From: Sinotaia quadrata
Taxonomy: Eukaryota > Mollusca > Gastropoda > Architaenioglossa > Viviparidae
Length of the DNA: 64,000 nt
Direction: 5' to 3'
NCBI GenBank assembly: GCA_028829895.1
Contig: CM054178.1
Span: 64,882,335-64,946,334, forward strand
The first letter of the stretch is position 1, and each line of letters opens with the position of its first letter. Positions 16,500 to 55,112 of the stretch are shown in pieces. Made by a program: the position numbers and the translations under genes. The notes beneath the pieces were generated by a model that saw nothing but the letters and a program-made list of their open reading frames with translations, was not told where the DNA came from and made no database searches.

Positions 16500-16850
16500 T
16501 ATTTCTGTGAAAAACTGCTGTAAAGCATAAGATCATAATAAACATTCCTAGAGTAAGGGAGTACTTAAAATATTTGTGAAAAACTGCTATAAAGATTTTA
16601 AAAAAATAATAAACATTCTTATAGTAAGGGAGTACTTAAAATACTTGTGAAAAACTGCTATAAAGATTTAAAAAAAATAATAAACATTCTTATAATAAGG
16701 GAGTACTTAAAATACTTGTGAAAAACTGCTATAAAGATTAAAAAAAAACCAAAACATTCTTATAGTAAGGGAGTACTTAAAATATTTGTGAAAAACTGCT
16801 ATAAAGATTTTGATCATAATAAACATTCCTATAGTATGGGAGTGCTTAAA
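16500..16850. repeat. 71-bp minisatellite, five copies
   Basis: Unit contains TGTGAAAAACTGCTATAAAG and AATAAACATTCTTATAGTAA followed by GGGAGTACTTA. The array ends about 50 bp before the stop codon of the helicase gene that reads toward it. Confidence 0.9.
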
Positions 16851-16904: not shown

Positions 16905-19610
16905 TCAGGTTTTTAATAAAAGTACTGATATTGCTGCAATTGCCACTGCACTTTCGAAAGCCCTCTCGGGGCCAAAAATTAATTCATTAGGATTAAATAT
17001 TTTCTCTACGCATGCTTTTAAAGTCGAAACTTCAGCATTGACATCATTATCATCATCGTCATCATCAGTGTCTTCGTCCGTACCCTCCGTTTCTTGATAT
17101 TCATCAACATTCATCACATGGGGTCTTGCCTTGCTCTGTAAATCATACGTCATTCCATGCTGACGTAAACCAAGGTCATTCACTACACGAGGCCGGTCTC
17201 CCCAACAAATGAAACAGCGCAAGCCAGACACCCGCTGTACCCAGTCCCCAAAATCTTCCAAAAGCTGTCTGTCGCTGATGATTGTATCGGAAGTGTTCGG
17301 GCTGAGTGAAACACCTTGCAGCGTGCGGTGGTATGTACCTCTCAGGTCTCCGTCAATTGAGAAGGCCACGGCTCCTACCTCTATCTTCCTCTCACCCTCT
17401 CTTAAGACGTAGACGGCGATGTAGCAAGAACAAGAACGAGGCATGCGGCAGACCTGAAGCTTTGAACTGGTTTTGACAGCGTCCAACACCATCTTTGCCC
17501 GCGCCATGTCCACTAACTCCTCGCGGGAAACCGGTGTGACCTTTTCAATCTGGCCGCGCAAGTTGATGACGTAAGCTGCAGGTGCGTTCAAAATGGCTGC
17601 TGTCATGGCGGCTTGCGTTCGGTGGGTTCGTGTGATCTTTGATGCGTACTTGATGTCAACGATGCCGGTATGGGTCGTGAGGTCTGGACAGGTGGTTATT
17701 TTCCCCACATTGATCTTGCTGCCATGCAGTTTGATGGGTAGCGAGCACTCCTCCTGGGGGCGTGGCCTATCGTTGCTATCCTGGGAATGGAGCAGCTCGT
17801 TAGTAATATATTCGACGTACGGTTTACAGGCGTCACGATGTTTACTAAGTTCACGCTCAAGTCTGGAACTTTTTGTCCAAATCCGGCCAATGTCAACCGA
17901 TATTGGCGCCACTGTGTGGGAGTAGCAGACATTTGCTGTGCTGACCATATCCTGAAGTTCTTGTAAATTAGGAAAGTCTGCTGGGACTTTCATAACTCCA
18001 TTGTGAGGTCTGCTGGATTCCCAAGGGTTGGGCTGGAACGTTTGATCGACCTGAATGCAAAATGGAGGAAGGACACCAAGGCTGTCTGCAATAACGTTTC
18101 CTAAATAAGACCCTACAATGTCATGGTCATCAACGGCGTCGACACACACGGAAGGTAATTTTTTTATAACCTCCCCTTGTGCCGATTGTGGTTTTCTCCA
18201 GATGTATTCGTCTTTGGCTAATTGGGTAACTTTAAAATCTCGGGTGTTCCTAGAAAACTGAACTCTCTCTGGATCGTTGTGTTTCAGTCTAGAAAAACAG
18301 CACAATGGACTGTCGGCTGGAATGTTTCCACTGGCTATGACGTGGAGGTGGTCCCTTGCACGTGACATAGAGACAAAAATAAGTCTTTTCAGTGATTCAT
18401 ATTGTATCAACCTTGTGTATGTAGCTGTTATGCCGTACAGAACCACCCGACTGCGCTCAGTTCCCTTCAGGCCAAAAGGGATGCCTAAGATGTAACCGTC
18501 AACGTCTGTTTGGCCACAAGACAAAAGTTCAGATTTGCCATACACGAAAGTATTTGCTAACGGGCGTTTTTCATACAAGATCTGTCTCACTGCTTTGGTC
18601 ACGTGTTCATTTTGAAATGCATCGACACTAACTGGAGTTATCCCGTAGGCGTCCTTGGGTTCGGAAAGCGACAGACGATCGCCTATTGTTTCCTGATAAT
18701 CGTCTGGATTTCCTTGCCAGAATTCAACCGTGCTCTCCTGACAATCTTCTCGCTTTGAAATGAGGTCAACATGCACCGAGCCTGGAAAGTGATGACGACA
18801 GTATGTGTTTAGAACTTCGACAATCTGTGGAGTGCTTCTATAATTATTTCTTAGAAATAAAATATTCTTCAATTCAGTGTCCTGCAACAGTTTGGAGAAC
18901 CACCTGGCACCAGAATAGACCTCCTGACGGGGGTCTCCTGCCACTACCAAATGTGAAGAAGTTTCTCGCAGTGTCTCCACAATGAGGGCGTGAGTGTTGT
19001 TGAGATCCTGGGCCTCGTCTACGATGACCCAATCCCATTTCCGTGCAGTGCCAGACTTGTCCATCCTTTGGAGTCTGATTATGGACTTTTCCAGACTTTG
19101 CCTGTAATTTCCCTCAGCGGACAGAATTTGAGCTCCTGAACTCCAGAAACCAAAAGAGTCAAAAGTGATGACTAAGCAACCTGGCTTTAGATCAGAACCA
19201 AACGCACTGCGTTTTTCCTGCAAGGTCACAGACCTCGCTTTAAGTCTCTCATGCAAGACGTTGCTGGCATACACATTATAAGCCAGTGCCAGAATTCGTT
19301 TACCAGGCTGCTTCTGTAAAATGTGGGCGATAAGTTCACACAGGGTTGTCGTTTTTCCTGACCCTGGTCCTGCGTTGATGATCGTTTTCGGTTTGTTCCA
19401 GCGTTTCAACACGGCCAGTTGGTCAGCATCTAGCTGCACTCGGGCCATTACCTGACTTGATCTGGGCGTTAAACTGTGTGGGTGTGTTACGGGTGGCAAA
19501 AGACCCTGTTGAGTAAAGCTTGTTAAAGCTTTCACGTCGAATATTTTCTGAAAATAAAGTCTGTGAATGTAAGGCATGACACAATTAAATAAGCTAAGGC
19601 ATGCAACCAT
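16905..19610 (-). CDS. UvrD-like SF1A helicase with nuclease-like C-terminus (CARD-less paralogue)
   Basis: Open frame of 901 residues from ATG at 19610 to TGA. Helicase motifs in order: Q-motif Gln64, Walker A GPGSGKT (81-87), Walker B DEAQD (198-202), motif III VAGDPRQ (223-229), motif IV NNYRST (255-260), motif V KGTERSRVV (382-390), motif VI SMSRARD (414-420). All ATPase residues are present; there is no room for long 1B/2B insertions, so it resembles compact FBH1-like UvrD enzymes. Residues 630-715 look like a PD-(D/E)XK fold (VDIKY at 651-655, Gln666). Residues 727-812 look like a DEDD fold lacking the first DxE. Then an acidic run (836-858) and a conserved tail. An acceptor-like TTTATTTTCAG lies inside the 5' end (codon 21), so residues 1-21 may be intronic; Met55 is another possible start. 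ATTAAA lies about 16 nt after the stop. It is noticeably more GC-rich than its flanks. Confidence 0.85.
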   Translation of the reverse strand: MVACLSLFNCVMPYIHRLYFQKIFDVKALTSFTQQGLLPPVTHPHSLTPRSSQVMARVQLDADQLAVLKRWNKPKTIINAGPGSGKTTTLCELIAHILQKQPGKRILALAYNVYASNVLHERLKARSVTLQEKRSAFGSDLKPGCLVITFDSFGFWSSGAQILSAEGNYRQSLEKSIIRLQRMDKSGTARKWDWVIVDEAQDLNNTHALIVETLRETSSHLVVAGDPRQEVYSGARWFSKLLQDTELKNILFLRNNYRSTPQIVEVLNTYCRHHFPGSVHVDLISKREDCQESTVEFWQGNPDDYQETIGDRLSLSEPKDAYGITPVSVDAFQNEHVTKAVRQILYEKRPLANTFVYGKSELLSCGQTDVDGYILGIPFGLKGTERSRVVLYGITATYTRLIQYESLKRLIFVSMSRARDHLHVIASGNIPADSPLCCFSRLKHNDPERVQFSRNTRDFKVTQLAKDEYIWRKPQSAQGEVIKKLPSVCVDAVDDHDIVGSYLGNVIADSLGVLPPFCIQVDQTFQPNPWESSRPHNGVMKVPADFPNLQELQDMVSTANVCYSHTVAPISVDIGRIWTKSSRLERELSKHRDACKPYVEYITNELLHSQDSNDRPRPQEECSLPIKLHGSKINVGKITTCPDLTTHTGIVDIKYASKITRTHRTQAAMTAAILNAPAAYVINLRGQIEKVTPVSREELVDMARAKMVLDAVKTSSKLQVCRMPRSCSCYIAVYVLREGERKIEVGAVAFSIDGDLRGTYHRTLQGVSLSPNTSDTIISDRQLLEDFGDWVQRVSGLRCFICWGDRPRVVNDLGLRQHGMTYDLQSKARPHVMNVDEYQETEGTDEDTDDDDDDNDVNAEVSTLKACVEKIFNPNELIFGPERAFESAVAIAAISVLLLKT

Positions 19611-19911
19611 GGCAACATTGAAACAAATATTACTTCGTTAAAATTATGCATCCGCATCTTACTTTGAAATGTAATTGTAATAGTGTAATAATGTAAAAAA
19701 AAATAAATCAACGAACAGGAGACAAATACAGTAAAGGCTTGCCCAAACATATTACATTTAAATGTCATTTTCTTTTTTTTCAGTAAAATATTTTTTGTGA
19801 AAACATTGTTTTTACCCAGAGTACTCTCTTTCCACTCATTTAATCACGAGTATGTCTGTTGTCCATCTCATGACTATGATTGTTATCCATATCGTCATTG
19901 TTTGCCTTCAA

Positions 19912-24486: not shown

Positions 24487-27185
24487 TCAGTCTGAGAATC
24501 GAAATAGATGAAAGCTTATAGCAGCAGTTGCTGCCGCGTCTTCAAATGCTCGATGTGGGACGTAAGCCAGTGACGACTTCAACATTATTTTCAGACACTT
24601 TGACAGTGTAGGTTCATCCTGAGACACTGCAACTTCCGCTTGATTTTCTTCATCGTCGCTGTTATCATCACTACTCTCCTCACTATCACTATCCTCCTCT
24701 TCTTCTTCGTCAGCAAGCTGTATATTTTCTCTTGGAAGAATTTCCTCTACTGAATGCTGTATGTCTAATATTTCCCCATATTTGCTCAGGTTCAAGGTAC
24801 CTAAGGTACTGCCCCAGAATAAGAAGCAGCGGAAGCCGGACACGTGACGTATCCACTCGTAAAATTTTTTCTTTGACTCTACTTGATCTTCCTTTAATTT
24901 ATTTTTGTCTTCTACTCGCAAGCCGGAAGTTTTTTCATCCATTCGTGGTTGAACTTTAACACCTTCCATTAGCTGATGGTACGTCCCTAGAACATCCCCT
25001 TCCATAGAGAAGGCTACAGCCGCAATTTCAGTGATGTATCCGCCCATTGTTCCCAATCCAACGGCGATGCAGCAATTAGTGGTCAGTCCCTGTGGTCTTG
25101 AGGAGTGGTAAGACACTGGCACAGACTTGGCAGCGTCTAACGCTATCTTTGCACGCGCCATGTTAATGAGTTCATCGCTATCCATAGCTGTGACCCTAAC
25201 TATAGTTCCGTCACTCATGTTGACAATGTACGCGAATGGTGTCTTGTTCACTGCCGCGTGCATTGCAGCTTCGGTACGGTCAGTGTGACTGATCGTCTTT
25301 TCATATTTGATCTGGACAACAGAATGGTCAGTTGCAAAGTGTGAACAGCACGTAACTTTTCCTATGGGAACCCGCCGGCATCGTTGCAACTCGACAGCCA
25401 TTTCTTTTTCTTCCTCGAACCGTATGTTTGCAGAATTGACATTTCCTTGCATATCTTGCTCCATCGCAGTCTCTTCTTTCCCAGTAAGTAAGTTTTCAAT
25501 TACCCGGATGTACTTATTAAAGATCTCACGATAGTTATTCCAGTGTTCCTTCAAGTGTGAACTTCTGGTCCAAGGTCTTTCAATCTGAGAAGTAAAGAGT
25601 TCTACAGTGTTATCGTAGCATGGGTTTTGTTGATCTGTTTCCTGAAGCTTAGACAACAGACCATAGACCACAAGGTATTTTAGATAGATTTGTATAACAT
25701 CGTAATCTTCCAGAGCATTCGTGAAAGGAACCAACGGAAGACCTTTGTGAATCTCCTTGGAGCAATCTGTCCTCCTGCTGTATTGATTAATTAGCCATTT
25801 TCCATATGGTTTGGAAAGCTCAATTTTTCTAAGGACATTTGGCCTTATAATTCCAATCTCTACTGTAATTAAGCTAGGATAGGTCATTTTGAAAGGATTG
25901 TCGTTCTGAAGCGTAGAGTCTGCAAGAATGTGCAGAAAGTCTTTTGCACGAGATAACGCAACAAAGTAAAATTTCTTCAGCTTCTCGGGGGTGTGTGTGA
26001 AACTAAAGTCTTTTGCGATGCCATAGATTACTACTCGACTGCGTTCCAATGCTTTAACGTTGTACGAGTTTCCAAAGAGAAATCTGTCACTGTATGCATT
26101 CTTGGATAAAAGCTTATCAGACCTGCCAAACACAAACGTTGATGCAGCTTCCTGCTTCTCGTGCAGCATCTGGAGAACTGTGTTGGTGACCCTGTCCATT
26201 TGATACCCACTGACTGTCACGGGGCAGATGGCGCAAGCACCTTTTGGTTCAGAAAGTAGGAGACAATCGACAATTTTCTGATGATATGCTTCCGGGTCTT
26301 CATCACACCATTGATCGACCGAACCATTATCTTGTCGTGTTGCCACTTGGTCGTAGTGGAACTCACGAAAATGCGTTCGACTATACTCGTTAATAAAATC
26401 TACTATTTCCTTAGTGCTTCTATGATTGTACCGGAGCTCTGCTTTGTATTGAACATTTTCCTGATGAAATTTTGAAAACCAGGTTGTGCCAGAGTACAAG
26501 CCTTGACGGGGGTCTCCAGCTACTATAAGGTGAGGGGTGTTTTTTTGTAAAGTCTCCACGATGCGCGCGTGAGTATCACTCACATCCTGTGCTTCGTCGA
26601 TAAACACCCAATCCCACCTCCTTGCTGGAGAGTCGGGTTTCTTTTTGCTAAGCTTCTTTGCTGCTCTCTCGAGAGCTTGACGATAGTTTGTTTTGTCATT
26701 GGTGTATGGGGTTTGGGTTTTCTTTGTGGTGCTCCAAAAGCCAAACGAATCAAACGTAAGGACGAGGCAACCTGCAGGCGGGTGTGAACCAAAAGCTTCT
26801 GACTTTGGAAGCAGTTTCACACCTTTTCTTAGAAGACGAGTGCTTATCTCCTTGCAGGCGTACTTGTTGAAAGCAAGGACTAGAACTCGTTTTTCTGTTG
26901 GGATGCGAATAACCATCTCGCACAGTGTTGTAGTTTTCCCGGTCCCAGGGCCGGCATTAATGACAACGATCTCATCTTCCAAGCGTTCCACAACCGCATG
27001 CTGGTCGTCATCTAACTGCACTTCACTAGCACTTATTTCTTCGGCTGAAACTTCTGAAGGTTTGAACCTTTTCGTTGGCTTTGCACATTTTTCTCTGTGC
27101 CGTGAATTAATGCTGCTTTGCAAGTTTGAAGCTGCACGTTTCTTGTTCTGCTTGTTTTTATTAATTTGAGATATTTTATGAATAT
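24487..27185 (-). CDS. Helicase exon of the CARD-UvrD gene (2.7 kb)
   Basis: Acceptor TTTATTTATTACAG precedes ATATTCAT on the - strand; the first two bases complete a codon begun by the final C of the CARD exon. In full-length numbering: Q-motif Gln189, Walker A GPGTGKT 206-212, DEAQD 324-328, VAGDPRQ 349-355, YNHRST 380-385, motif V with ALERSRVV at 506-513, ALSRAK 537-542. All motifs are intact, so the ATPase is predicted active. The nuclease-like segment reads VQIKY where the paralogue has VDIKY, and the following Gln is Glu (RTEAAM), so that fold has probably lost catalysis here. The DEDD-like part (EIAAVAF, then FLFWGS) also lacks the metal-binding acids. The helicase core is strongly similar to the 16.9-kb paralogue, the C-terminal half less so. 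Confidence 0.88.
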
Positions 27186-30100
27186 CTGTAATAAATAAAA
27201 ATGTAAAAATGTGATTATATTAAAGATTTCTAATAACTTGATAGTAGCTTGATAATATTAACAAAATAAATGAACATTTAGATTTTAGAATGTACATTAT
27301 GTTTTTAAATGAAACATTAAATTTAATATCGTTTTCATTAATCAGTCTTTCTAAGGACATCGTATTTATAAATTACCACAGAATCATCATAACCATTTCA
27401 TAACAAAAATCTCAATTACAGTACATATGTAGTTGTATAGTGCTGTAGTTCTTCACTGTGGACCCAGCTAACCGTCCACTCATGCATTTAAAATTTTTCT
27501 TTTAGTAAAGTATGCAAAATTTACACAAGATCCTGACAAGCTTACAAACCAATTTGTGAATTTATTTTGAGGTAATGTAACACTTTAAGAAACAGCAAAG
27601 AGAAATTAAATTAAACTTTACAATCTGTACTTAACATTCACGACATGAAGGCTACATCATGATTCAGAAATACTGTAGTGCAAAATTATAAACACTCTGA
27701 CGTCAGCAGTGCAGGGGATAATAAGTAGCCGTAGCAGCAGTTTTGATCTAGAAATACAAGTTTTCTGCTTTTTGTTTTTTACGCAGTAAAAGAAAAATGT
27801 ATGCTTTGTATATTTGTCTCCCATGTCTAAAGTATAAGAAGTGGGAATAGAATATCTCTGCAGCGTGTCCTTGTGATTTATTAATCGTCATCGAAAACCT
27901 GGCGCCCACGGGGAACTGCAGTCATTTGAATTCAAAGGGACAGTTATTCGTTATAAGGGGGATTTGGGGGATGAACACTAATTTTCTTTTACCGCACTCT
28001 GTGAATATGGTCACCTCAGTAAGATTCGTGTGGAGTTTTTGCACCCACAAAGTTGCCCCATTACATAATTTTGGTAGTACTGATTACGAACTAGCATTAT
28101 GGGTGCATCAACTTACAGTAATATTTTATGGGCGTGAAGTAAGAGAACCGTTTTGTTTTGTTTTTGTTAAAAAATGTCGATTGGATAAGGAACTGGTTCA
28201 CGACAGTTTTAAATAACAATTCAAAAATAACAGCTAACCACACAACGTAATTTAACCCACAAAATTACAATATTCACTAAGGCCCCCGAGAGTAATTACG
28301 CAGAATGAGAAAGTCAGTCTTGGTGAATCCATGGAAGTGAGCAATCTCCTGCAACTCATGGACGTCAGAGCAATATAGGGCTATTTATATCCTGCCGAGC
28401 CGCTCAGTGGCCCATGCACAAACACTTTACTATTTTCATAGTTTTAGGGCTTTGGCGAGCTCCCTTATGGGTTAGTGTGATGGTATATAGCCTGTCTTGA
28501 TTCTAGGGCACTAAGGCATACAACAGTTAAAGTCCAATGAAAATCAGTCCAGTAGTTTTAGAGTTTTTTAGCCCTGGTCCAATAAAGAGACGTAATGATT
28601 CTATAGTTGTATATAGATAAGCATGCACTCTAAAAATATTCTTTAAAATTTTACTCTCATGGTGTTCTTAAACAATAACAATAATTGAAACTAAGACGGA
28701 CTAAACTCGAACATTTCATATGTACAGTACTTAAAGTGAAATATGAAACATAAAAGTGATTGAATTCATTACTTAAAGTTAAATGTGAAGCACAATAATG
28801 GTTGAATTAATACATTTTTAAAAATTCATTTCAATTCTCATTTCTTTTATGTTTTAAGATTTCATGAATCAGCAATCCTAGTCAGTGGAGTCATTGAACA
28901 TGGCTGTAGGCAGAACTTATAAAAGTGCTATTAAAGAGAAAATTATATATAAAATTATAGCAATTTGGCATGTCCTGATCGTTCAGATGTGAGTTATCTA
29001 TATGAGATTAATGTGTGTCCAGTAAGGGATGCCTTAAGACGACTGCAAATATAACTTCACTGTAAAACGTCTGTATGGAGTTTGATTCATTGTTAAATGA
29101 TCGCTAGAAACTATTAACTTACTGACTTTAGGCCGTAAAAGTTTTCATTTGCCGAAGTATTAAGCATTCGTTATCAAATAATCCATCTAAAGTATTTTAA
29201 TGCAATGAATAATTATACACTTTGTTTATTGATTTTAAATTATCCCACTTTGGTTTCGACTTGCTCTTACCTCCCTTTATTTTGCTGCTTTTATTGAGGT
29301 CTACCACTGATAATACTCTCAAACCATTAAATCCTGTGAAAATAAATATGTTCGTTCATATATGTCAGTGTTTGTATGTGAGTATGTGTGTAAATGTTTT
29401 ATCAAATTTTTATAATTAGAGTAATGTATTATTATGTGACCTACGTTTTTCAATGTGCTCAGCCAAATGAGGGATAAGGATATTATCCTTCCGCAGTGCG
29501 TCCAGTAAATGTGAAATCCAGTTGTCACGACTCTTGAGAATTTCCAGTAAAACGCCTGCTGCTTCAATTCTACCAGAGCTCTTCTGTGTTGCGCCAATTT
29601 TCTCCTGAAATTAAACTATAACATTAGGAAGGAAGCATATATCTTTGTCAGGAAGACATATCCCTTAGCAAATCTAGATAAATATTCTTTAAAACTCATA
29701 TTCATTACGAATAAGAGATTGAACTAACTGATGTGTAACCTTATTTTATCTATTCACATGTTCACTTACTGTGTTAATTTAATTTATTTGTATCGGGTGT
29801 TCAAGTTGTGTGGACAGTAGCAATGAGTGGAATAATGAACGAAGTGTGGATAGTAGTTGTGACACCAACCTCTGGGCACCCTTCACCCGTATGGTTATTA
29901 TTTATTAATTAACAACACATCATTCATTACAAATGATCGAGAATCTTAATTTATAGTTATTTAATAATTCTTCCACAAGGCCAACATGTCTCTCACTTGG
30001 CGGATTATAAGGGTGTCATAAAACTCTACTCTTCATAAAATAATCAGACAGACCTTTTTACTGTCGCGTAATGTTTCTGCAGGTGGAAACTTCTTACTAA

Positions 30101-30356
30101 AGGATTAGTAAAAATATGTCTTGTATTTATATTTAATGATCCCCCATCCACCAACATAAGGTTTAAATTTATGTGCAAGGAAGTTAATAAATTTTAACAA
30201 TAAATTTATTAAATCAACAATCAAATATACAACATTTGAATATATAATCAAAAGTGTTGACATTTACATCATTTCACAACAATGCCTGATTAAACATTAG
30301 ACACTCATTCAGTTTATCCTAGTATAGACATCAACAATCAAATTAGCATACATGCA

Positions 30357-30422
<66 letters not shown>

Positions 30423-33400
30423 ATCAGGTTCATATCATAATTTCATCATGGAAAGAGTGGAGGTATAGAGAGAAAATTATTGTTAATGAACGTTACATTT
30501 TCAATGATGGCAGCTGTTGCTAACAGGTGTTCACAATTATGCAGTTTGCAACAAGTCATTTTCTTTTTTTATTAGGTGACGGCCCAACATAACCCATCTA
30601 GGTATGTTAACTGTTCCAGAATCTTCGATGTACTCACAAAGCACACTCTGGAGAATCATCCAGAACTTCATTTGCACTATCAAAGCACATCATGGAGAGT
30701 GTTCTAGAATCTTCATGTGCACTACTCAGCACACCACAAGGAATGTTCAAGAACTTTCATGAATTCTTGAGACCAAACTCAAGCCTCAATTTTCACCATA
30801 TTGGCTCTGGAACAGAATTCACAGGAATCAACTTAGAGCAGCATGTTTACTGATGAGTTCAATGACAATGTTGGATACATACAACCAACACGATCCAGAA
30901 GAGTACAGTAGTGTGAATTTTTTTGGATACAAGACTACAAAATTGAAAAGGTGCACTTTCTGCAAAAATAAAATTTTCGGCAGTGCTAAATTTCAAGCAT
31001 ATTTCATCTCTAAACTCCTTTCTCCTTTACACACATTCCCGACTTACAAATCCTGCAGTAATATTCATTAGCTTGATACACATGCAACATAAGAAATACA
31101 GCATCAATCCAAATTCACTAGTATAATGTACAAGGTAGTCAAATTAGTGAACATAGAAATAATGATTCAATTACATAAGCATTCTCCAATTCAAATCATA
31201 GTTCAATAGCAAACATGTATGAAATATTTCTACGTCCAACCTTTCTTTATCAGTCAGTTAACTTACCATACGCTAACCATCTTCTTTATGACTGGACTTG
31301 GGTTAAAATCAAAGTGATTAGAATATAGGACTTTCTTCAACAAAATAACTTTTGGGCCATCCCCATTGGATGAAGTTGTTATGAACAAGTGTGAGACTAT
31401 TAGTCAGACAATCTACTCATCCACTTGTAACTGGTTTGGATTGCATCAGCAAATTCTAGCATATTCTCCATCTGAGTTGTTTACTCAAACTCTGACACAA
31501 AAAGTACAATCATAAGCAAGTGCCCAAGGTCAGGTCACGTTAAAATTGGCAACAATATATAATTATTAACTTTAGAAATAGGGATAGGCAAATTTACTCA
31601 GCCACAGTAGCAATGGGTGATTGACTGAATGGACCAGAACAGCGGAGTAGAGAGATGTAAAAGTTAGTGCTTGGTCGAGTCTAGATTGAATGCAGGTTAA
31701 ACGAAGATGAACCTCCATCTGCCTACGCGAACTAACTGACGTTATAGAAAATTATCTATCTGGTAAAATTCAGTCTTGGGTTAAGAAATTCTAAAGGGAG
31801 AAGGTGGCTCAACTCCTAGAGATACAAAAACCGCTGTTCATATAGCTTAGTTTCTAAATAGTGTATAGTGTAAATGAAAATCACACAGAGACGCCTTCAT
31901 ATTGACTCCAAAAAATCTAGTGTCTACATCCCTTCAAGGAACAAATGGACCCAGCACCAATGGCAAACAATAAACCATCTCGACAGGCACAAAACCAACA
32001 AGATGAAAGACGTAGATCACTCAAATAGTTCGACTTCAACAGAATTCAGCACCCCTCAATGAGTCAACCACACACTGCACCACAACCAGAGCCAACCGTA
32101 CACTCCAGAAACAACACAATGGACTACCATCACTGGAATTCATGGTGGTGGCTCTTTGATGTAGTTAAACAACACTGCGATCTGTAACATCAAGGCCAAC
32201 GAAACCACCAATACGGGAACCAGAGGTGGAACGCACAAACCAGCCAAACAGGAACAGATTGCTTTTGTACTGACAGTGGGGTCGCTCGTATTGCTCCTGA
32301 TCATAAAGGTAAGTCAAAAGAGAAAAGTGCTACACAAACATAAGACCAGCGATGTCATTTAGCAGTATAAGTCGTGCATACAGAAACGAGAGAATCCTAT
32401 TCTACACTTAAATGCCACCATTACATGTTACATGATCCCTCACCTCAAACTTCTTCACAAGGAAAAATTAAAAAGTAAACATTATTACTTTTAAAGTAAA
32501 CAGTACATTACTATACCGGGTTGTGTATTGTATTCCTAACATTGTTTGCACTTCTTCGAACTTCTCGAAATTTCTGTTGTCAAAATAATGAGAGATGTTA
32601 GACAGACTAAAAAGAATGTTTTGTAATTAAAAGAAAAGAAGAATTACTGCATCATTATCCGTTAGTAAACTGACGCTACGAAGATAGGGAATTAAGTCCT
32701 TTGGTTCTACCAAATCCACAAACATTGGATGAATTTGTTTTCTCAATTCATTCTTGTCCTCGTGACTTAAGCTCTTTATCTCCTCTGTCAGCTGCAAAAA
32801 AAAAAAAAAAGAAATATGCATTGCATTAAATAAATTTTGTTGTTGTTGTTACGCTCTCACTCACCCCAGAAGCCGCAATAGACCTTTCATAATTTAAACG
32901 AAATGAGATTGTACTTCACCCATGCAAAGGTTGCACGAATAGTACTTTTAAAAAAAAATTTCATCTGATGAACCATATTTTAACAAAATATTTTATCAAA
33001 ATTAAAAATATACACACATTTTAATAAAATATTCTATCAAACTTAAAAATATACACACATTTTAATAAAATATTCTATCAAACTTAAGAATATACACACA
33101 TTTTAACAAAATATTCTATCAAAATTAAGAACATACACACATTTACACATTTTCTATCAAAATTAAGAATATACACATTTGTAATGTAGTGACTAATATC
33201 CACTGACCATTCAAATACATCAATACAGACTTATTTTCAGTTACAACTGTAAACTACTTCTACATATATCAAGCTAATACTTTATACAGTTTTTTTAATA
33301 GATTTTCTATAATCTGATTTTTTCCCATATTAATATATACTACGGTCAAATATAAAAGTAATTATGATATTAATTATGTTTTAGGTTAGCACTGACAAAG

Positions 33401-33664
33401 TTAGAAGAACATGCTATAGTAAAATACAAAAGTAATTATAATATTAATTATGGTTTAGGTTAGCACTGACAAAGTTAGAAGAACATGGTATAGTAAAATA
33501 CAAAAGTAATAATGATATTAATTATGTTATAAGTCTGCACTAACAAAGTTAGAAGAACATGCTAATTTTGTTTTTAAGTAATGTGTTGGAAAATTTTATA
33601 TTTAATATATTTATTTTTAGTAAATTTTCATGCACATACACACATTCTCTCTCTCTCTCTCTCT

Positions 33665-33709
<45 letters not shown>

Positions 33710-36700
33710 ACACACACACACACGTATATATTCTTTAGCTTGAGAAAAATATACTCTGTATAATTTATATAAACATATTTGCAAGTGTACGTGTTTGTTA
33801 GAATATAATGAATGCTTCTCAGCATATTGTTTACAGCACTGCTGTTTTCAATGACTGTTTTTTCCCAAAATAACTGCACTAAAACTTTATATATACATCA
33901 GCGGATAAAGATTGTATAGTTATTACTTTGATTCTGAAAAACAAAATAATAAACCTGAAATACATACAAATTAAAACAAAACATTTGATTAGAATTTTTC
34001 AACAAAGTTCTTTTTAAATGTGACAGCAAACAATTGTTGACATCTTTTAATGATTGTATTCTGTAAGTGTAATATTACATACTAATATTTTCAAGAATGT
34101 TTATTTTAAGTATTTAAAATATAAAAGACTTTATCATTACTCAATACTAAAAACAAGAATTATTATAATACAAGTCGATTAAAATGAATTAAATATGATT
34201 ATGTAATTTACAATGTTATATAAGGCATATTTTAAAAATAATGAATGCTTCCAACACGTAGTCTTCAGCACTGTAATGCTAGGCTGGTATTTTCAAAATG
34301 GTCTTGCTGAAACTTCCGTTAGCGGCAGCGCTTGCTATAAATGGATGTCCTCTCCATTTATATATACATCTCAGTCGTTGCAAGGTGAAATTTCAGTCGT
34401 TACCATCTCAACAAGTCAGTACATAACATGGGTCATGTCATACTATAGATCCGATGTCATGGATATGGGAGAATATTAATTAATTTTTTTCTCTCCCTAA
34501 GTGTCATTATACTCTAAACGGTTAACAAAACAGCCAAATTAATTTAAACATAGCAAAGGGCTAAAATAACTATTTTGTCAACAATGTGAAACCGAAGTGT
34601 GGAAACGTTAATTGATAAAGAGATAAGTTTTGGTGGTAGTTCGTGCTGGTGGATGGAGAGGCATGATTAGTTTTCGAGGGTGCAGCATTTACCTCTCTGC
34701 GGTCAGGAATGCCAAGACAATAAATCGTGTCATCTATGGGAATATGTGGTAGGCCACTGAGACGCTAATTTTGTCTGTGAGAAAACAGGCTCTGAGTTTT
34801 GGGATGCAAAATGTTTTTAAAAATCACAATAAAATTTTGATAGTAATATTGTTTAAGGTCAGATATTTTTATTGTGAAATTGCTTGTTGAAGTAGAATTT
34901 TGAGTTATTTGAAAGTTGAGATTTATATTGTAATAGTTATATGTGACAGTCTGTGTGTACAACCCTTTCTTTGCTTGCTAGGTGGTGGTTTGTAACAGTT
35001 GTGACATAGTTAAAAATAAAAACAAAAATAAGGAATGCTCTGAGGTCAGTCTGTGCTCTGAGTTAGGCAGGAAATTGATATGTCAATCACTATGTGTCAA
35101 CTTGGAATTCGATACCTGGTACTAATGGGAAGTGGACAGTCAGAAAATTTGTCAGCATGATTCGAGACTATGTGCAGTGCTGGATGGAGGTGCTGTGTGC
35201 TGAAGGAGGTGTGTTTCTAATCAGCTCAGTGAAAATGATGTACAAAGACTTTGTGTATAAAATGGGACCACGGAGACAGAAACAAATGAGAAAGACACCA
35301 GGAATATAGTGTTTGGTGGTGGGTAAGAAAAACCCTCAAGTTTTCTCCCTATGCCTTGTACCAAGGACTCTACGAAACTGGCTGGCAATCAGTTAGAGAA
35401 CTCTTGGACACTGCAATAGAGTGTCAGATGTCTACCCGGATGTGATTTTAAGACGCGCTGTCAGAGCTGTCAACAGATCAAGATGGACCAGTCGTATGGA
35501 CAATCATCTTGGTTGTTCTAAAGACTGTGTGCAAAGACTGCGGGTGATTGGCTATTTTCCAGGCAGTAGAAAAATAGACTGATGGAAGTTTAGCGTCACG
35601 GCACTGAGAGATATTGCAGATAGGCAGTTAAGTGACCATGTGATGCATGTCGCAGTATAATGGCAAGGATGACCATTAAGAGAAGAGAAGAAACGAGAAA
35701 CATAATGAGAAGAAATGAGGAATGAAACAAGAAGTAATGAGAAAACATAAGAGTTGAGAAATAGGCCTAACGAGAAGCGTAACGTGAGAGTGAGATGGTA
35801 GCAGCGGGACGGCTATACTTTGGGTTCCAGGGAGTGAACCATGTGTCGAGATGTCGACGGTGTTTTTGTGTATCTTCAAACCCCCCAGCACGAGGAGAAA
35901 GTGACAATAACTATGTGAGTAGAAAAATACTAATTAGGGAAAGAATCTCAGAGCACATTAAACTTAAAACTATAAACATAAAACTTAAAGCTAAAGCCTA
36001 GAATCTTAATTAAGAATTAAACCTTAAATTAAGAATAAACTTTAAACTTAAATCTACGTTTGAACAGTGAAGAGTCATTTTAAGATTAGTTAGAAAATAT
36101 TGATGTGACTGTTGAAAAGGACTTGCAAGTCGAATGACATTGTTTTCTTTTTACAATATTGAATAATTTTGATATAGGGGCAGTGGCTCCAGAACTTTTA
36201 AATAATGACTGTTATGTTGAATAATGCTTAGCCTATTTTAGAAGTAGTACTGCATGAAGAATCTTGAGTTTTACATTTATTTTATTTTATTTCATCATTC
36301 ATTTCTTTTCCCCTACCACACGGGTGTGAGTTGTGGATGGCTGACTAACCAACGTGTGAGAGGAAACCCATAGATCAATAAATTTGAATTTATATTTTAA
36401 TATTGAGACTTTTCTTATCTATGGTTTTGAAAGAGTGGTTGTGTCGTTGTTACACGTTGTGTCGTCTGTGCTGTCTACACTTCACCCTTACCCGTATGCA
36501 ATAACACATGCAAACATGTCGGCAATCGTAAACTACATGCAGAATAAAATTCGAGCCAAATAACCAACTTGGTGTTCTGTGTGTGGATTTGTAATAACAT
36601 CTATGCAAGTCCTACGTGGCGTCGACTAGCCACCAACCCCTTTCTTCGGAGAAAAGGGTGGCGGTGACACCCGACAATCTAAGATCAGATGAGAGATCAT

Positions 36701-37932
36701 CCCACATCCCAAGTCGAGAGATTGGAGCGTCATGCCCTACTTGCCAAAGGCCTGTCCAGATGTGACAAGGCGGTGTCATGAGTACCCGCCGACTTGATCG
36801 GCATCGTTATCGCAACGCCTTTTTGACGTGCTCTGGAGCCAGTCTTTGGATGGAAGCAGCAAGATCAAGCCCCGATACCAGGGTTATCTTCCAGGGAAGT
36901 GTGTAAATTTAGTCCTAACAGCTTGACCCGCAAAGATCGATACACAAAAGCCGAAAAGTTGTTTCCACCAAACGTCCTCTGACAAAGTAGTACTTTGTCC
37001 TTGGGCCAGTGTTCTATAGCGCCTACAACTTTATTAATTCTTGCACTAGTCTTTAGTAAGACTTCAATCATTATATTAAAAATAAACATTGTCATTACTT
37101 TTTAGCTTACTCATATTTTATATTCCTTTAATGCAAATGTACATGTGTACTAGAGTGAAGGGGCATTTTTTGAAATCTTTGACTTAAATTGCCTCCTAGG
37201 GTATGAACATGACAGCACACGTGCCCTCTTTACAATTTCCATTATTTTCTGATACATGTTCATACTCTCTATTTGATTTATATAACTCAAATATTATCTG
37301 ATAATTGTTTGACACAGTGAAAGTAAATTTATTAGTTTCTTATAAGGTCTTACACTATATAAGAGTTACTTACTGTATGGAGTTTGGCCTGACTTTCTCA
37401 ATACTGAAGTAGGTATTTTTGATGGTACAAGGGTAGCCTCCCCACAATTAATTTATGTTTGGATATCCAAGTCACTGGTAAACTCATCTCGATACATTTA
37501 CACTCACTGACTCACTGCTACTTGGACTCATTACCCTGACTTTGAATGAACGGACTAGAACTTGAGCAACTTGACCAAGCCACTGCAGGTCAATTGGTAA
37601 TAATTAGCTCAATATTTAGCCTACTGAACGCAGGACTGGTTGACCAATTGGATCTGACTGCTCACGCTTGCTCTAGTATTTCAGAGCTGTTTTTCGCTGT
37701 CATCAGAATAAGACCACAGAAAACTTTCCCAGACCAAATTTAGTTTTTAAAAGCATTAAATATAATTTTACTGATCTTCATATAAAATGTAGTATTTTAT
37801 CTTAAGTAGTCGAGATTTGTTTAAATTGGTATTTAATTATAAAAGACATTTCACCTGTTCATTCTGGTGAGTTTCCTCGCCAGGCTGGGAAATGCTCTCG
37901 TTATCCATGTCCTGCTGGTTTGTTTCCATCAT
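24487..37932 (-). CDS. CARD-UvrD helicase fusion, candidate innate immune sensor (4 coding exons)
   Basis: Join of 37932-37855, 32791-32648, 29604-29445 and 27185-24487: 3081 nt, 1026 residues plus TGA. Residues 1-26 form an acidic leader, about 30-125 a CARD, 128-185 a Lys-rich linker, about 186-545 a UvrD helicase, about 736-814 a PD-(D/E)XK-like part, 831-923 a DEDD-fold-like part, 952-976 an acidic run, 987-1026 a tail shared with the 16.9-kb paralogue. Intron phases 0, 0 and 1 fit at every junction, and the helicase exon has no in-frame ATG before Walker A, so it needs the upstream exons. CARDs recruit other CARD proteins into filaments (MAVS, caspases, APAF1). A UvrD helicase would move on single-stranded DNA or RNA; nucleic-acid sensing is inference. 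A fused CARD/SF1A helicase is not a family I can name. Confidence 0.75.
27186..29444 (-). other. CARD-UvrD gene intron 3
   Basis: 2.26-kb intron (donor AAAAC|GTAGGT, acceptor ATTACAG) carrying a Helitron helicase relic at 27780-28130. A block near 28490-28600 has the wording AAAACTACTGGACTGATTTT on the - strand, a type of sequence often seen in Helitron non-coding ends. No further exon is required by the splice phases. Confidence 0.65.
27780..28130 (-). pseudogene. Helitron/PIF1-type helicase relic, C-terminal motifs
   Basis: On the - strand, in shifting frames: APIMLVRNQ (about 28110-28080), VFIPQIPL then PFEFK, a stop, LQFPVGARF, and MTINKSQGH at about 27891-27862. These match the block order of Helitron-encoded PIF1-like helicases (APIMLLRN, IPRIPL, PFEFKRRQFPV, MTINKSQGQ). 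Frameshifts and stops show it is dead. It is unrelated to the UvrD helicase exon next to it, although both are SF1 proteins. Confidence 0.75.
29445..29604 (-). CDS. CARD second-half exon of CARD-UvrD gene
   Basis: 160 nt, acceptor TTTAATTTCAG, donor AAAAAC|GTAGGT, enters phase 0, leaves phase 1. It encodes 53 residues starting EKIGATQ and containing RIEAAGVLLEILKSRDNW and HLLDALRK then IPHLAEHIEK. This is the helix 4-6 pattern of CARDs (A-x-LL-x-IL, then LL-ALR, then LA-x-HI), as in APAF1 and RIG-I/MDA5. It joins in frame after LLTDNDA of the upstream exon, giving LLTDNDAEKI, the typical CARD helix 3-4 turn. Confidence 0.82.
30361..30420. repeat. (TG)30 microsatellite
   Basis: Perfect 60-bp dinucleotide run. 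Confidence 0.98.
30605..30770. repeat. Roughly 60-bp repeat, three copies
   Basis: Three imperfect copies containing CCAGAATCTTC and AAAGCACA-CTGGAGA-type words in series. Confidence 0.6.
31870..32330 (+). other. A/C-rich stretch, possible decayed retrotransposon ORF1
   Basis: T-poor stretch with broken open frames (first one 31874-32062) and Asn/Thr/Gln/His-rich translations. This composition is common in LINE ORF1 relics. No intact zinc knuckle or RRM is visible, so the assignment is weak. Confidence 0.25.
32648..32791 (-). CDS. CARD first-half exon of CARD-UvrD gene
   Basis: 144 nt, 48 codons, phase 0 at both ends. The acceptor is a 15-T tract followed by GCAG; the donor is GATGCA|GTAATT. 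It encodes LTEEIKSLSHEDKNELRKQ then PMFVDLVEPKDLIPYLRSV and SLLTDNDA. That is the helix 1-3 pattern of a CARD: basic amphipathic helix 1, L-x-DLVEPKDLIPYLRS, then LLT-DDA before helix 4. In frame with the preceding exon (CAG|CTG) and the following one (GCA|GAG). Confidence 0.82.
32990..33180. repeat. 41-bp minisatellite, four to five copies
   Basis: Unit ACACACATTTTAATAAAATA plus TTCTATCAAACTTAAAAATAT. Confidence 0.88.
33340..33565. repeat. 78-bp tandem repeat, three copies
   Basis: Unit contains AATACAAAAGTAATTATGAT and GGTTAGCACTGACAAAGTTA followed by GAAGAACATG. Confidence 0.9.
33645..33725. repeat. Compound (CT)n(CA)n microsatellite
   Basis: CTCTCT run directly followed by a long CACACA run with one GTA interruption. 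Confidence 0.95.
34600..36900. other. G-rich insertion of unknown class inside CARD gene intron
   Basis: Composition changes to clearly higher G content than the surrounding AT-rich intron. It includes a purine run with repeated AGAAATGAGGAATG-type words (35680-35770), an AATAAA at about 36378, and a GC-rich segment from 36610 containing TGGCGTCGACTAGCCACC. The arrangement could be an LTR (ending near TTGTAATAACA at about 36590) with adjacent leader, but no LTR pair, integrase or RT was found. Short open frames (35094-35309) match no family. Confidence 0.3.
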
Positions 37933-37985
37933 TTTGGTTTGGTAGTCAGGATTGCTGCTTGTATATGGTGTATTGTCATCAGTAG
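37855..37985 (-). CDS. Start-codon exon of CARD-UvrD gene
   Basis: 131-nt exon: acceptor GTGTCTTTACAG, donor GAACAG|GTGAAA. Tandem ATGs at 37932 and 37929 start a 26-residue acidic leader (MMETNQQDMDNESIS then QPGEETHQNEQ) that runs in phase 0 into the CARD. The exon is open upstream of the ATG. If it is joined to the best upstream donor candidate (39969), the frame meets a stop without an earlier ATG, so 37932 is the preferred start. A coding upstream exon elsewhere cannot be excluded. Confidence 0.65.
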
Positions 37986-41869: not shown

Positions 41870-41883
41870 CTGAATCTATTTAA

Positions 41884-42270
41884 CTTTGTTCACTATTACA
41901 ATATTACATCAGCTCTTGTTATTTGACTTTGTTCACTTTTACAATATTAAATCAGCTCTTGTTATTTGACTTTGTTCACTTTTACAATATTAAATCAGCT
42001 CTTGTTATTTGACTTTGTTCACTTTTACAATATTAAATCAGCTCTTGTTATTTGACTTTGTTCACTTTTACATGATTACATCAGATCTTGTTATTTGACT
42101 TTGTTCACTTTTACAATATTACATCAGATCTTGTTATTTGACTTTGTTCACTTTTACAATATTACATCAGATCTTGTTATTTGACTTTGTTCACTTTTAC
42201 AATATTACATCAGATCTTGTTATTTGACTTTGTTCACTTTTACATGATTACATCAGATCCTGTTATTTTT
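41884..42270. repeat. 43-bp minisatellite, nine copies
   Basis: Unit TTTGTTCACTTTTACAATAT plus TACATCAGATCTTGTTATTTGAC, highly uniform. Confidence 0.95.
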
Positions 42271-45570: not shown

Positions 45571-46051
45571 TTAAAATTTGTTATCATAACCACCACAACC
45601 AGAGCAATCCAGGTCAAAAACGTCCTTAAACAAAAAGTCCGCAAGCTCTGGAGAGAAAGGAAGCTAACGGAACAACCATTTATTAAAAAATCATAATACA
45701 TTGTATTAAATTTAGAATATTTATCTTCATTGGCATGAATCAAAAACGTCTTTCGTTGCTAGCTTCAATATTTTTGTCTCCCTTAGTATATAACATATTT
45801 TAATTAATAAAAAAAAGTCTGGAAAGAAATAAACAAATTTCCCAACACAATAATATGTGAAACGTTATTTGTAATCAGATCTACTAAATTATATGTATTT
45901 AATTAGTAATTTTAGTATATATATATTATACATTATATATTTGTTTTATTTAAACCTTCTGTATTTACACTGTATTTCTATATTGTGGCACTTTTTCTTT
46001 ATTTCTGCAGAAACAGTTTCGTCAAAACTTAGCTTAAGCTAAATTTTGTGG

Positions 46052-48588
46052 CAAAGACGAAACAAACGCCGGTCTACTTAACAACTACAGACCAATATCG
46101 TTATTAAACGTAGACTACAAAATACTGACGAAATCACTGTGTAACAGACTGAAAACAGTGATGAGTAAAATCATCCACCCAGACCAATCCTGCGGGGTAC
46201 CTGGCCGCTCAATCATAGACAACTGTCACTTAATCAGAGACATAATAGACCATTGCAATTCACGCAATATACCTGGCTTCATTCTTTCGCTAGACCAGGA
46301 AAAAGCCTTTGACAGAGTGTCCCACAAATACTTATTGCGCACCCTAAGAGCCTTCGGCTTAGGGGAGAGCTTTGCGAACTGGGTTTCGGCCATCTACAAC
46401 GACATCTGGAGTAGCGTCATTGTCAACCAACACATATCGACCCCCTTCCCGGTATCACGTTCCGTGAGGCAAGGTTGCAGTTTATCGCCCCTACTATACG
46501 TACTGTGCCTGGAACCGGTCTTGAAAAAGATTCGGGAAGACTGCACTGTACAGGGCATTAAAATCCCAGGTAAAAAAGAAACAGTAAAAATCAGCGCTTT
46601 CGCTGACGACAGCAATTACTGCTTGTCAGACGATAGGTCAGCACACATCGTCACCGACTGGTACAGGCTGTACGGCCGTGCCTCCGGGGCGAAACTAAAC
46701 CTAGCAAAAACCAAAGGACTGTACCTCGGCGAGTGGCGAGGAAGGACAGATAACACACTAGGCATAAAGTGGGTCGAATCAACCACAATTTTCGGAGTCC
46801 TTTTTGGTGCCACCACCCCGGATGACTTATGGCATCCAATATGCCAGAGCATCCTAAAAACACTAGCCCTTTACAAAGGCCGACATTTATCGATCTTCGG
46901 CAAAGCTAAATTAGTAAACATCATGGTTTTATCAAAACTATGGTACACGGCCGCAGTACTTCCACCACCCGAACATTACACCAAACTGATAGAAAGAGCG
47001 GTTTTCGATTTCTTGTGGACAGGGAAACAGGAGTTAGTGAAAAGAGCGACCATGTTTTTACCCCCAAGAGAGGGAGGGGTGGGGGTAGTAAGCATAGACA
47101 CAAAAATCCGCAGCTTGCTGTTGACCCAGGTAGGCAAAATCGCTACGGGAAAAACAGTCCCCTGGGAAAACTTCGGACACATGTGGTTGGGAATACAACT
47201 GGCACGCACGCCGGGCTACACTTTCAGTAACACGCACCCACACTGCATCAACGACCCACCTCCATACTACGCCGCATGCATACGTGCACTCACATATGCA
47301 AAATCACGCAAACAGAACTTTACCTTCACACCAAACACCACGGCAAAGCAACTGTACAAGCTTCTCATTATAGACAAAACATCTAAACCAAGAGTATTAA
47401 CACTCTTTCCGCAGATAAACTTTAAACAGGCCTTCTCTTCAGTATGTGACCCCTTTGTGAACCCAGACACATACAACATAAATTTCAAGCTTGCACACGA
47501 CATAGTGCCAGTGGCATACACGCTACATCTTCGCAATATCACCCCCCATAAGATGTGCTCTTTCTGCCATCTGCATTGTGAAACAGTAGAACATCTATTT
47601 CAACAGTGCGTCCACGTTAAGCGTGCGCGCGCACACCTAGAAAACTGGGCCAACACCCTAGGCTACCCCCTCCCACCCTCAGCAATTCGTTTCGGCGAAG
47701 GCACGCAAGCAGGTCCACTGCCGAAAGCAATTTTAGCACTTCTGGCCGAATATAGATTTGCAGTGTGGACGAGTCGCAACCGAGCACGCTTCGACAAAAA
47801 GATCATTGTCGGTGCGGACGTGACCCAGTATTTTCTAGCCCGTGTACGCATCCGACTACATGTTGACAAAAGCCGACTGCCCCACGACACCTTCCGAAAG
47901 ACGTGGTGTCACAGTACTCTGTGCACCATAGGGGAAGACGGAAAGCTAACTGTTCCTTTCTAAAATGTAAAATTTTGAAGAGTGGGGCCGCGCGCCATCC
48001 GTAGTGTGTTTGCGTGTGTAACTGTGTGCGTGTGTGGACGGCATTCGCCGGGAACGAACGTCAATATGAATGGAAAACGGAAAGCGTGACGACCCCCGCA
48101 CCCTAACCTCGAAAAATGTAAACAAATCTAACCCCGGTTCGAGGTCACGCATGGCTGTGTGAGTGACAGCGGGAATGAAAGTCGATATCCGAAATGAGGG
48201 CGAAAGCGCGCTGACCTCGTAACCTAGCTTGCCTTCTTAGTTTTAAATTTCTCTCTCTTATACTTTTCTATTGTCCATCCACATTTATTTAAAACGTAAG
48301 ATTGATTCTAGATGTACATCGTTTAAAAATACCTCTTATGTGTATCCCGAATATTGTATCATACATTCCGCTTGTATTTATATCATTTCAAAACACCTTA
48401 TCATTTGTGTCCAGCCATGACAAACTTTTTGTACATCCGCTTAACATTTTAACTAAATGTGATATTTTATATTGTCCATCTTAGGACCACTTTTTATTGT
48501 TTTTATGATAAATTGTTTATATTTAGTTATATGAATAAATGGGCTTGCCTTTTAAAATAGGGCAATGCTGGAAAAAAAAAAAAAAAAA
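46052..48588 (+). mobile_element. 5'-truncated L1/Tx1-type LINE with poly(A) and 11-bp TSD
   Basis: The direct repeat AAATTTTGTGG lies at 46041-46051 and 48586-48596, hugging an insertion that ends in a 17-A tail with AATAAA near 48534. The 5' end falls inside the reverse-transcriptase domain, so the endonuclease and ORF1 are absent. The duplicated blocks at 42873 and 50382 show the matching unoccupied site (AATTTTGTAGCTCTACCAC). An intact downstream reading frame and a perfect duplication point to a recent insertion. Truncation makes it non-autonomous. Confidence 0.9.
46053..47963 (+). CDS. Reverse transcriptase, C-terminal part of LINE ORF2 (L1/Tx1 clade)
   Basis: Open without a stop from the insertion point; an internal ATG at 46161 is not a real start. 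RT motifs in order: NNYRPISLLNVDYK, CGVPGRSIIDN, LDQEKAFDRVSH (A), RQGCSLSPLLY (B), AFADDSNY (C, with the YADD-equivalent FADD), ASGAKLNLAKTK (D) and TIFGVLFG (E). The C-terminus has a zf-RVT knuckle CSFCHLHCETVEHLFQQC. PGRSI and the zf-RVT knuckle are typical of L1/Tx1 elements. The missing endonuclease and RT start make it non-autonomous, though the RT palm residues are intact. 3'UTR 47964-48571. Confidence 0.92.
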   Translation, partial: KDETNAGLLNNYRPISLLNVDYKILTKSLCNRLKTVMSKIIHPDQSCGVPGRSIIDNCHLIRDIIDHCNSRNIPGFILSLDQEKAFDRVSHKYLLRTLRAFGLGESFANWVSAIYNDIWSSVIVNQHISTPFPVSRSVRQGCSLSPLLYVLCLEPVLKKIREDCTVQGIKIPGKKETVKISAFADDSNYCLSDDRSAHIVTDWYRLYGRASGAKLNLAKTKGLYLGEWRGRTDNTLGIKWVESTTIFGVLFGATTPDDLWHPICQSILKTLALYKGRHLSIFGKAKLVNIMVLSKLWYTAAVLPPPEHYTKLIERAVFDFLWTGKQELVKRATMFLPPREGGVGVVSIDTKIRSLLLTQVGKIATGKTVPWENFGHMWLGIQLARTPGYTFSNTHPHCINDPPPYYAACIRALTYAKSRKQNFTFTPNTTAKQLYKLLIIDKTSKPRVLTLFPQINFKQAFSSVCDPFVNPDTYNINFKLAHDIVPVAYTLHLRNITPHKMCSFCHLHCETVEHLFQQCVHVKRARAHLENWANTLGYPLPPSAIRFGEGTQAGPLPKAILALLAEYRFAVWTSRNRARFDKKIIVGADVTQYFLARVRIRLHVDKSRLPHDTFRKTWCHSTLCTIGEDGKLTVPF

Positions 48589-51944: not shown

Positions 51945-52130
51945 TGTTTCGATAGCAATTTTACGTCACTACTGGAACTTCCGCTGATAATTTCGTCACC
52001 AGACGTTCTCTGATCTGGAGTGCCCCAGTGGGACCACCGCCCTACACTTGTGTTCGGGGTGGAGGGTGGATGGCTGACGGAAAGGGGTAAGTTTGGCGCA
52101 CACCTTCAACCGCCCTCCTTCGGCTATGAT
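51945..52130 (+). repeat. GC-rich interspersed repeat, copy e
   Basis: Reads GATAGCAATTTTACGTCACT, CAGACGTTCTCTGATCTGGA and CACCTTCAACCGCCCTCC. Confidence 0.8.
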
Positions 52131-54049: not shown

Positions 54050-54660
54050 TATTGTTATCATTATTTAATTGATCATCCAAAACTAATTAAAAGTGATGAG
54101 AATCTTAATTCATTTTATTAATAATTCTCCAGCAGACCCACTCGTCTCTCTCTTGGCGGATATGCAAGAGCTGTAAACTAAAGTTGTAGAAGAGAGAAAA
54201 CGTTTACCATCACACAAGATTTCTCAGTCCATTCTCTCTCAATGTCAGTTAACTCACCATTAATCTAATGGCCTCTTTTCATGACCGGACTTCTTACCAC
54301 TCCAAATTCAAAGTGATTGGACAATAGAATTCTTTACAGCAAGTAAACGTTGATCTCAGCCCATTGGCTGTTCTTGTTCTTGTAAATCTTAACTACTGGA
54401 TAATAAAACTACTCATCTACCTAAAACCAGTTTAGATTACATCAGCAAATCTAGCATATTCTTTAACTGAGTTGTAAACCAGTTTAGATTACATCAGCAA
54501 ATCTAGCATATTCTTTAACTGAGTTGTTTCTTCCAACTTTGACACTTAAAAATATCAGCACAAGCAGTGCCCAAGGTTGGGTCACTTTGACATTTACCAA
54601 TTTGTATAACAATCAAGTCTAGAAATAGGGATAGGCAAATTTACTCTTCCAAGGGTTTAA
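54050..54660. repeat. Dispersed repeat, continuous copy
   Basis: Matches the two split pieces in the CARD-UvrD intron (29880-30050 and 31230-31610), ending in GAAATAGGGATAGGCAAATT. Part of it (AGAGAAAACGTTTACCA) also recurs near 44150. Confidence 0.7.
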
Positions 54661-55112
54661 AGAATTTGCAGATGAATAAAACAGACATTAAGAGCAAATT
54701 AGGGAACAACAGGAAAGAAATGAAATACTGAAACAACTGATGGAATAATTGAAATAAATAAATAAATGAAGAACAATAAAATCAATGCCAATATATATAT
54801 GTTTTCTTTATGCATTTTGTATACATGTTCTTCTCTCTTGGGTAACGCATACCTTGACTGAATGGATATATTGAAATAAAATGTCTTTTTGAAAGGAGAC
54901 TGCACCTTTAAGCAAGCATTATAATTTGGATTAAAAGGTTTTGAAAATGATGAAAACTTAATCTCCGCATTCTATTTTGTGATAAATAACTGGGCAATTT
55001 TAGTCAGTTTAATAAGTGGCCTCATCAATTATCAGGATATGTGAAGGCTGTAAAAAAAAAAAGATGAATAATAAATCCTTGCAAATTATATCCTTTCTTA
55101 ATATTTGTTGAG

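Follow-up and report, generated by a model that had tools for sequence, protein, structure and literature searches.

A predicted gene joining a RIG-I/MAVS-type CARD to an SF1A helicase in the gastropod Sinotaia quadrata

The window analysed here is a 64,000-nucleotide stretch of the Sinotaia quadrata genome (Mollusca; Gastropoda; Viviparidae; NCBI GenBank assembly GCA_028829895.1, contig CM054178.1, positions 64,882,335 to 64,946,334), numbered from its first letter. On its minus strand lies gene A, which is predicted to join a CARD to a UvrD-type helicase of superfamily 1A (SF1A). The window also holds a helicase paralog, B, and a third copy, C, lies outside it. The parts of gene A are as follows.

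37855-37932, minus strand: exon 1, with the start ATG at 37932 and the donor CAG/GTGAAA
32648-32791, minus strand: exon 2, encoding the first half of the CARD (starting at residue 27), with a weak donor and no Pfam match alone at E 10
29445-29604, minus strand: exon 3, encoding the second half of the CARD (ending at residue 127), which alone passes CARD_2 (1.7e-7)
29271-29333, minus strand: candidate extra exon of 63 bp, phase 1-1, encoding the linker RFNGLRVLSVVDLNKSSKIKG
24487-27185, minus strand: exon 4 (2.7 kb), which encodes a basic linker and the SF1A helicase core, then a PD-(D/E)XK-like region, possibly an RNase-H-like region, and an acidic tail before the stop
25939-26952, minus strand: helicase core, spanning residues 206 (Walker A) to 543 (motif VI), from which the nucleotide positions were calculated
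25210-25530, minus strand: residues 680-786, with a weak likeness to PD-(D/E)XK that stays below the Pfam cut-off

The predicted junctions are all GT/AG, with phases 0, 0 and 1, and the four-exon join gives 1026 residues with a single terminal stop. The exon coordinates, frames, junction phases and 1026-residue frame from the ATG at 37932 given in the original prediction were all reproduced, as a predicted splicing pattern. Exon 1 may have a 5' extension up to an acceptor near 37986. The four-exon model appears incomplete, having overlooked the candidate 63-bp exon at 29271-29333, whose inclusion would bring the predicted product to 1047 residues. This exon was the sole candidate in the intron between exons 3 and 4 when open exons of 20-399 bases were considered, with phase 1 at both ends and both site scores at least 4. 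Sites were scored with a self-made weight matrix and ranked on the minus strand, where the 63-bp exon has a donor among the best 0.27% of 3702 GT sites and an acceptor among the best 1.55% of 3559 AG sites.

In the open frame of exon 4, Walker A comes at index 89 and the first Met at 101, so that no in-frame Met precedes Walker A. Its acceptor at 27185, the top score in the opened stretch, needs one carried base, which could be supplied by exon 3 or by the 63-bp exon, both of which end in phase 1. Because of the missing Met before Walker A and the fitting phase of acceptor 27185, we assign exon 4 to the same gene as the CARD exons. The alternative is a pair of genes, of which one encodes a small protein with just a CARD and the other, for the helicase, has its first exon elsewhere. 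The CARD exons do lie more than 2 kb from exon 4, and B and C each seem to begin at an ATG of their own (19448 and -9358), without a CARD. Set against these points, the phase-1 ends upstream of the best exon 4 acceptor and the lack of a start before Walker A make two genes unlikely in our judgement.

On the joined product of gene A, CARD_2 (PF16739) was found at E 6.7e-13 and 48.9 bits (cut-off 28.2) over residues 37-125, and CARD (PF00619) at 4.4e-6 and 27 bits (cut-off 23.9), so the hidden Markov model search bears out the earlier claim of a convincing CARD in two exons. Among solved chains, RIG-I (2.7e-8), MDA5 (8.8e-6) and MAVS (0.0077) come nearest, while Cell death protein 4, a cell-death CARD, appears at 0.089 only. 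A profile built from the RIG-I, MDA5 and MAVS CARD pieces, with gene A excluded, aligns through the exon 2/3 junction at 44.0 bits; against the open reading frames (ORFs) of the window it scores 1.6e-8 for the exon 3 ORF and only 0.19 for the exon 2 ORF. This test is not fully independent, because its pieces are those aligned to gene A beforehand. The CARD intron sits between LLTDNDA and EKIG in phase 0. In a hand alignment, two other split CARDs at 82.31 Mb on C2, in the same genome, are cut at the same codon boundary and phase 0, and this shared position therefore supports the exon 2-exon 3 join. Across the genome, CARD_2 gave six matches from 14 scored candidates, one being exon 3 of gene A. 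Searches of 114 kb around gene A with phmmer and with a small profile revealed no second CARD; the next best profile match had E 1.7.

UvrD (PF00580) matches the gene A product at 1.1e-19 and 71.6 bits (cut-off 23). By eye, the helicase motifs include GPGTGKT, DEAQD, GDPRQ, RST and VALSRAK (motif VI), and they were placed at residues 206-212 (Walker A), 271-277 (Ib), 322-328 (II), 350-355 (III), 378-385 (IV), 504-513 (V) and 535-543 (VI). UvrD_C (PF13361) is not listed for gene A, and paralog B has PF13361 (0.0062) and PF13538 (0.018) under cut-off. Of the earlier description as a complete UvrD helicase, the PF00580 match and the motifs thus stand, while completeness does not extend to PF13361. 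DEAD (PF00270) is not listed for gene A in the Pfam scan, and ResIII (PF04851) is under cut-off at 0.0029.

The helicase also matches profiles of prokaryotic and phage helicases. GajB is the best PADLOC model among the matches listed (25 of 51 families), at 2.1e-19 for exon 4 of gene A and 4.3e-23 for the better of A and B. PHROG 1967 (DNA helicase) matches at 5.1e-30 for gene A and 7.5e-35 for the better of the two, and the NCBIfam models recB (1.2e-13) and helicase IV (1.4e-8) match far below their cut-offs. As profile matches, these show a prokaryote-like SF1A helicase, not Gabija membership. Relatives were also sought with short back-translated patterns, and none was confirmed among 145 pattern-matched stretches in viral_contigs or 135 in genome_contigs, where a second pattern gave 0 stretches. 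The GDPRQ pattern hit three viral loci, none convincing (best E 0.024), and a phage tblastn search returned one weak record (4e-6 over 25% of paralog B).

The remainder of exon 4 is less clear, and the C-terminal nuclease-like and RNase-H-like domains of gene A are weakly supported. PDDEXK_3 matches gene A at 0.0025 and paralog B at 0.017. The earlier label of a nuclease-like C-terminus is therefore weak, the match lying below the cut-off in both copies. With the motif assigned by eye, paralogs B and C keep DIK where gene A has QIK; because of this replacement, any nuclease in gene A is probably degraded. For the last domain there is a Maelstrom (PF13017) hint at 0.1, and at 0.066 in one of three members, below cut-off. 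A structure model of the 272 C-terminal residues was poor, with a predicted local distance difference test (pLDDT) score of 42.8, and its 570 fold matches at E <=10 include Cas4-like and RNase-H-like folds, with 0 at <=1e-3; given the poor model and the lack of a match at that level, the fold search is a hint only. An 856-residue model was set aside (pLDDT 30.5), and two matches of a last-domain profile to solved chains (E 1.1 and 1.4) were not used.

The helicase is present in two further copies, which the original prediction did not mention.

16905-19448, minus strand: paralog B, a single-exon SF1A helicase with a likely ATG at 19448; its ORF opens at 19637
About C2:64870400-64873111 (window coordinates -11934 to -9223), outside the window: paralog C, with an apparent ATG at -9358

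Paralog B is 40% identical to gene A in the alignment and 35% by blastp, and neither B nor C carries a detectable CARD beside its helicase. In the animal's own 984-Mb assembly, PF00580 was found in three ORFs, all of this tandem (six matches, 44 of 44 candidates scored); these counts are lower bounds, and an intron-split helicase could escape them because scoring runs exon by exon. Between B and C, synonymous divergence (dS) is 0.142 and nonsynonymous divergence (dN) 0.074, giving an omega of 0.52. By blocks of 150 columns, omega is 0.26 and 0.09 in the first two and 0.70, 0.95, 0.50 and 0.77 in the next four, and the helicase core of B and C is under constraint. Synonymous sites are saturated between gene A and either paralog. 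A 92-residue ORF at window coordinates -4411 to -4136, on the minus strand, resembles the C-terminal part of a helicase paralog (E 0.0024) and is perhaps a remnant copy.

Ahead of the ATG, the reading frame differs between B and C, so this leader is probably non-coding in at least one of them. We considered whether the CARD exons might be shared by all three copies via alternative splicing and set this aside: no acceptor of gene A's phase scores over 0 in the part of B that was examined, and C offers a weak one (0.37). With no detectable CARD in B and C, the CARD was either grafted onto gene A or lost from the other copies. The pair of CARD exons was probably grafted by exon shuffling onto one tandem helicase copy with an intron-free coding part; alternatively, the ancestor of B and C may have lost its CARD. 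The earlier statement that the receptor was independently assembled is supported as regards the motor, which is SF1A and not superfamily 2 (SF2), and which in B and C has no detectable CARD.

Two other explanations were weighed. In one, the helicases are a domesticated mobile-element or viral family, and the copy with the CARD is a regulator or decoy of a CARD pathway, or a neutral fusion. Intron-free coding stretches of ~850-900 residues in an intron-bearing genome would fit this, as would the strong PHROG 1967 and GajB matches. The pattern searches of viral_contigs and genome_contigs, with no confirmed relative, and the single weak phage record speak against it, as do the presence of only three copies in one tandem and the constraint on the helicase core; of the explanations weighed here, we hold this one the least probable. 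In the other, the fusion is real and its CARD links a helicase of DNA repair or replication with apoptosis, in damage signalling and not antiviral sensing. CARDs also act in caspase activation, there are matches to RecB, PcrA, Rep and UvrD models (well below the cut-off wherever one is shown), and a basic linker in gene A, KKRAA...KPTKRFK, resembles a nuclear signal by eye. The top solved chains are nevertheless RIG-I, MDA5 and MAVS, with Cell death protein 4 well behind, and three copies in one tandem fit lineage-specific defence better than core repair. Damage signalling is accordingly improbable in our view, although it deserves somewhat more weight than two separate genes.

The reading that we prefer, to which we give close to an even chance, is that gene A encodes a RIG-I/MAVS-type CARD, a linker, an SF1A helicase and possible PD-(D/E)XK-like and RNase-H-like domains, and most likely works in the mode of a RIG-I-like receptor (RLR) on another motor. 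The architecture of CARD plus SF1A helicase proposed originally is upheld by the profiles, the splice phase, the shared intron position and the missing start in the helicase exon. In RIG-I, the motor binds nucleic acid and the CARD signals upon clustering. By analogy, the helicase of gene A would engage single-stranded or end-exposed nucleic acid, using ATP; binding would gather the CARDs together, and the gathered CARDs would nucleate a CARD adaptor. Owing to the motor's family, DNA is a likelier ligand than RNA. What the sequence shows is the domains, the helicase motifs, an exon structure that allows the fusion and tandem paralogs with no detectable CARD; the transcript, ligand, oligomerisation and signalling output of gene A are all inferred here. 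The earlier proposal of a receptor for foreign or damaged DNA is likewise a hypothesis.

Several observations weigh against this reading. The splicing of gene A is a prediction from sequence. Its exon 2 has a weak donor, in the top 24% of GT sites, and its exon 3 a modest acceptor, in the top 8%. The CARD-to-helicase join spans an intron of ~2.1-2.3 kb and depends on phase and on no alternatives having been seen; agreement of phase by chance is 1 in 3 per junction, and the intron was not systematically searched for the terminal CARD exon that two genes would call for. Of the split CARDs at C2:82.31 Mb, one is over the CARD_2 cut-off of 28.2 (28.7 bits) and one under (25.3), and they are not the closest to gene A, with 18-23% identity versus 27-31% for the RIG-I, MDA5 and MAVS pieces. 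CARD_2 matches on C4 and C5 run unsplit through the intron point of gene A. Paralogs B and C show the helicase existing without a CARD, and their omega of 0.50-0.95 in the later blocks means that the C-terminal half is only loosely constrained. The function of gene A is, moreover, wholly a matter of what we infer.

A bolder version of this proposal is that gene A represents a distinct, independently assembled class of animal CARD-helicase receptor, in which an SF1A, GajB-like DNA motor takes the place of an SF2 RNA motor, senses DNA ends or single-stranded DNA and feeds the CARD adaptor used by RIG-I, a split CARD having been grafted onto a prokaryotic- or viral-type helicase. We regard it as a tentative idea that is rather unlikely to hold in full. 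If true, such receptors would form the DNA equivalent of the RLRs. If the fusion is transcribed, CARD and helicase were brought together repeatedly in evolution, on motors of more than one superfamily, and the general claim that any ATP-dependent nucleic-acid motor can drive CARD output becomes testable; invertebrates would also gain a candidate DNA-side sensor, with a logic akin to that of bacterial UvrD-type defence helicases. No CARD-UvrD protein is named in the titles and abstract openings listed by capped searches of an open-access library, with which the earlier remark that this layout has no named family is consistent.

Other loci in the genome carry related parts. At 9.92 Mb on C4, a CARD_2 exon (1.2e-10) lies ~10 kb upstream of DExD/H exons (DEAD 2.2e-8; ResIII 1.2e-5), so the animal probably has RLR-type parts. 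We call this locus RLR-like from its CARD and DExD/H exons only, taken as separate exons. At C2:82317214-82320387, on the plus strand, a split CARD is followed ~2 kb on by an ORF with a hydrophobic tail end, and the locus could encode a tail-anchored CARD adaptor of the MAVS kind; the Pfam scan of that ORF gave only a sub-threshold G-protein-coupled receptor match (Sre 0.0083). On the plus strand of C5, two adjacent unsplit CARD_2 ORFs (44764804-44765742 and 44772589-44773344) have similar cysteine-containing tails, and on its minus strand a 1625-residue ORF near a CARD (52018-56892) looks SAMD9-like by eye, with nothing over the Pfam cut-off in the 1097 residues scanned. The window itself holds a reverse transcriptase ORF of a non-long-terminal-repeat retrotransposon (46038-47960, plus strand; RVT_1 3.6e-35, zf-RVT 4.2e-6) and many minisatellites whose units measure tens of bases (63 overlapping rows), for example at 3898-4324, 16506-16850 and 41877-42268. 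In the right flank, outside the window, a 627-residue ORF (window coordinates 68384-70264, minus strand) has the look of a ZBED/hAT-type transposase derivative by eye.

Compared with known systems, gene A shares its core motifs and PF00580 with the SF1A helicases UvrD, PcrA, Rep and RecB; it differs from them in having 44 residues between motifs Ib and II, in that PF13361 is unlisted and in the eukaryotic CARD attached to it. FBH1 carries an F-box N-terminal to its UvrD helicase, whereas an F-box family is listed for neither A nor B. GajB of Gabija is the best PADLOC match, a likeness that comes from the helicase profile alone, and PMC10681800 describes GajB as a separate subunit of a complex with GajA, unlike the predicted CARD fusion of gene A. 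In cnidarians and brachiopods, as far as the relevant parts of PMC8195603 report, TRADD-N is fused to DDX60, Mov10 and RLR-like helicases; these fusions likewise place a death-network adaptor domain on a helicase, with another adaptor domain and other helicases. Lophotrochozoan RLRs show grafting of N-terminal domains with exon changes, according to sections of PMC8998645, but have an SF2 helicase and an RD, and 'uvrd' occurs 0 times in that paper. The RLRs in general resemble gene A in that a CARD_2-family CARD at the N-terminus is linked to an ATP-dependent helicase, and RIG-I and MDA5 are the nearest solved chains to gene A's CARD. They differ in that the motor of gene A is SF1A and UvrD-type where theirs is SF2 and DExD/H, and in that gene A has one detected CARD and not two; the RIG-I C-terminal domain (PF11648) is absent from the 18 families listed for gene A up to E 1. 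Because the SF2 core and the C-terminal RD are absent, we do not class gene A as an RLR, though it may still work like one.

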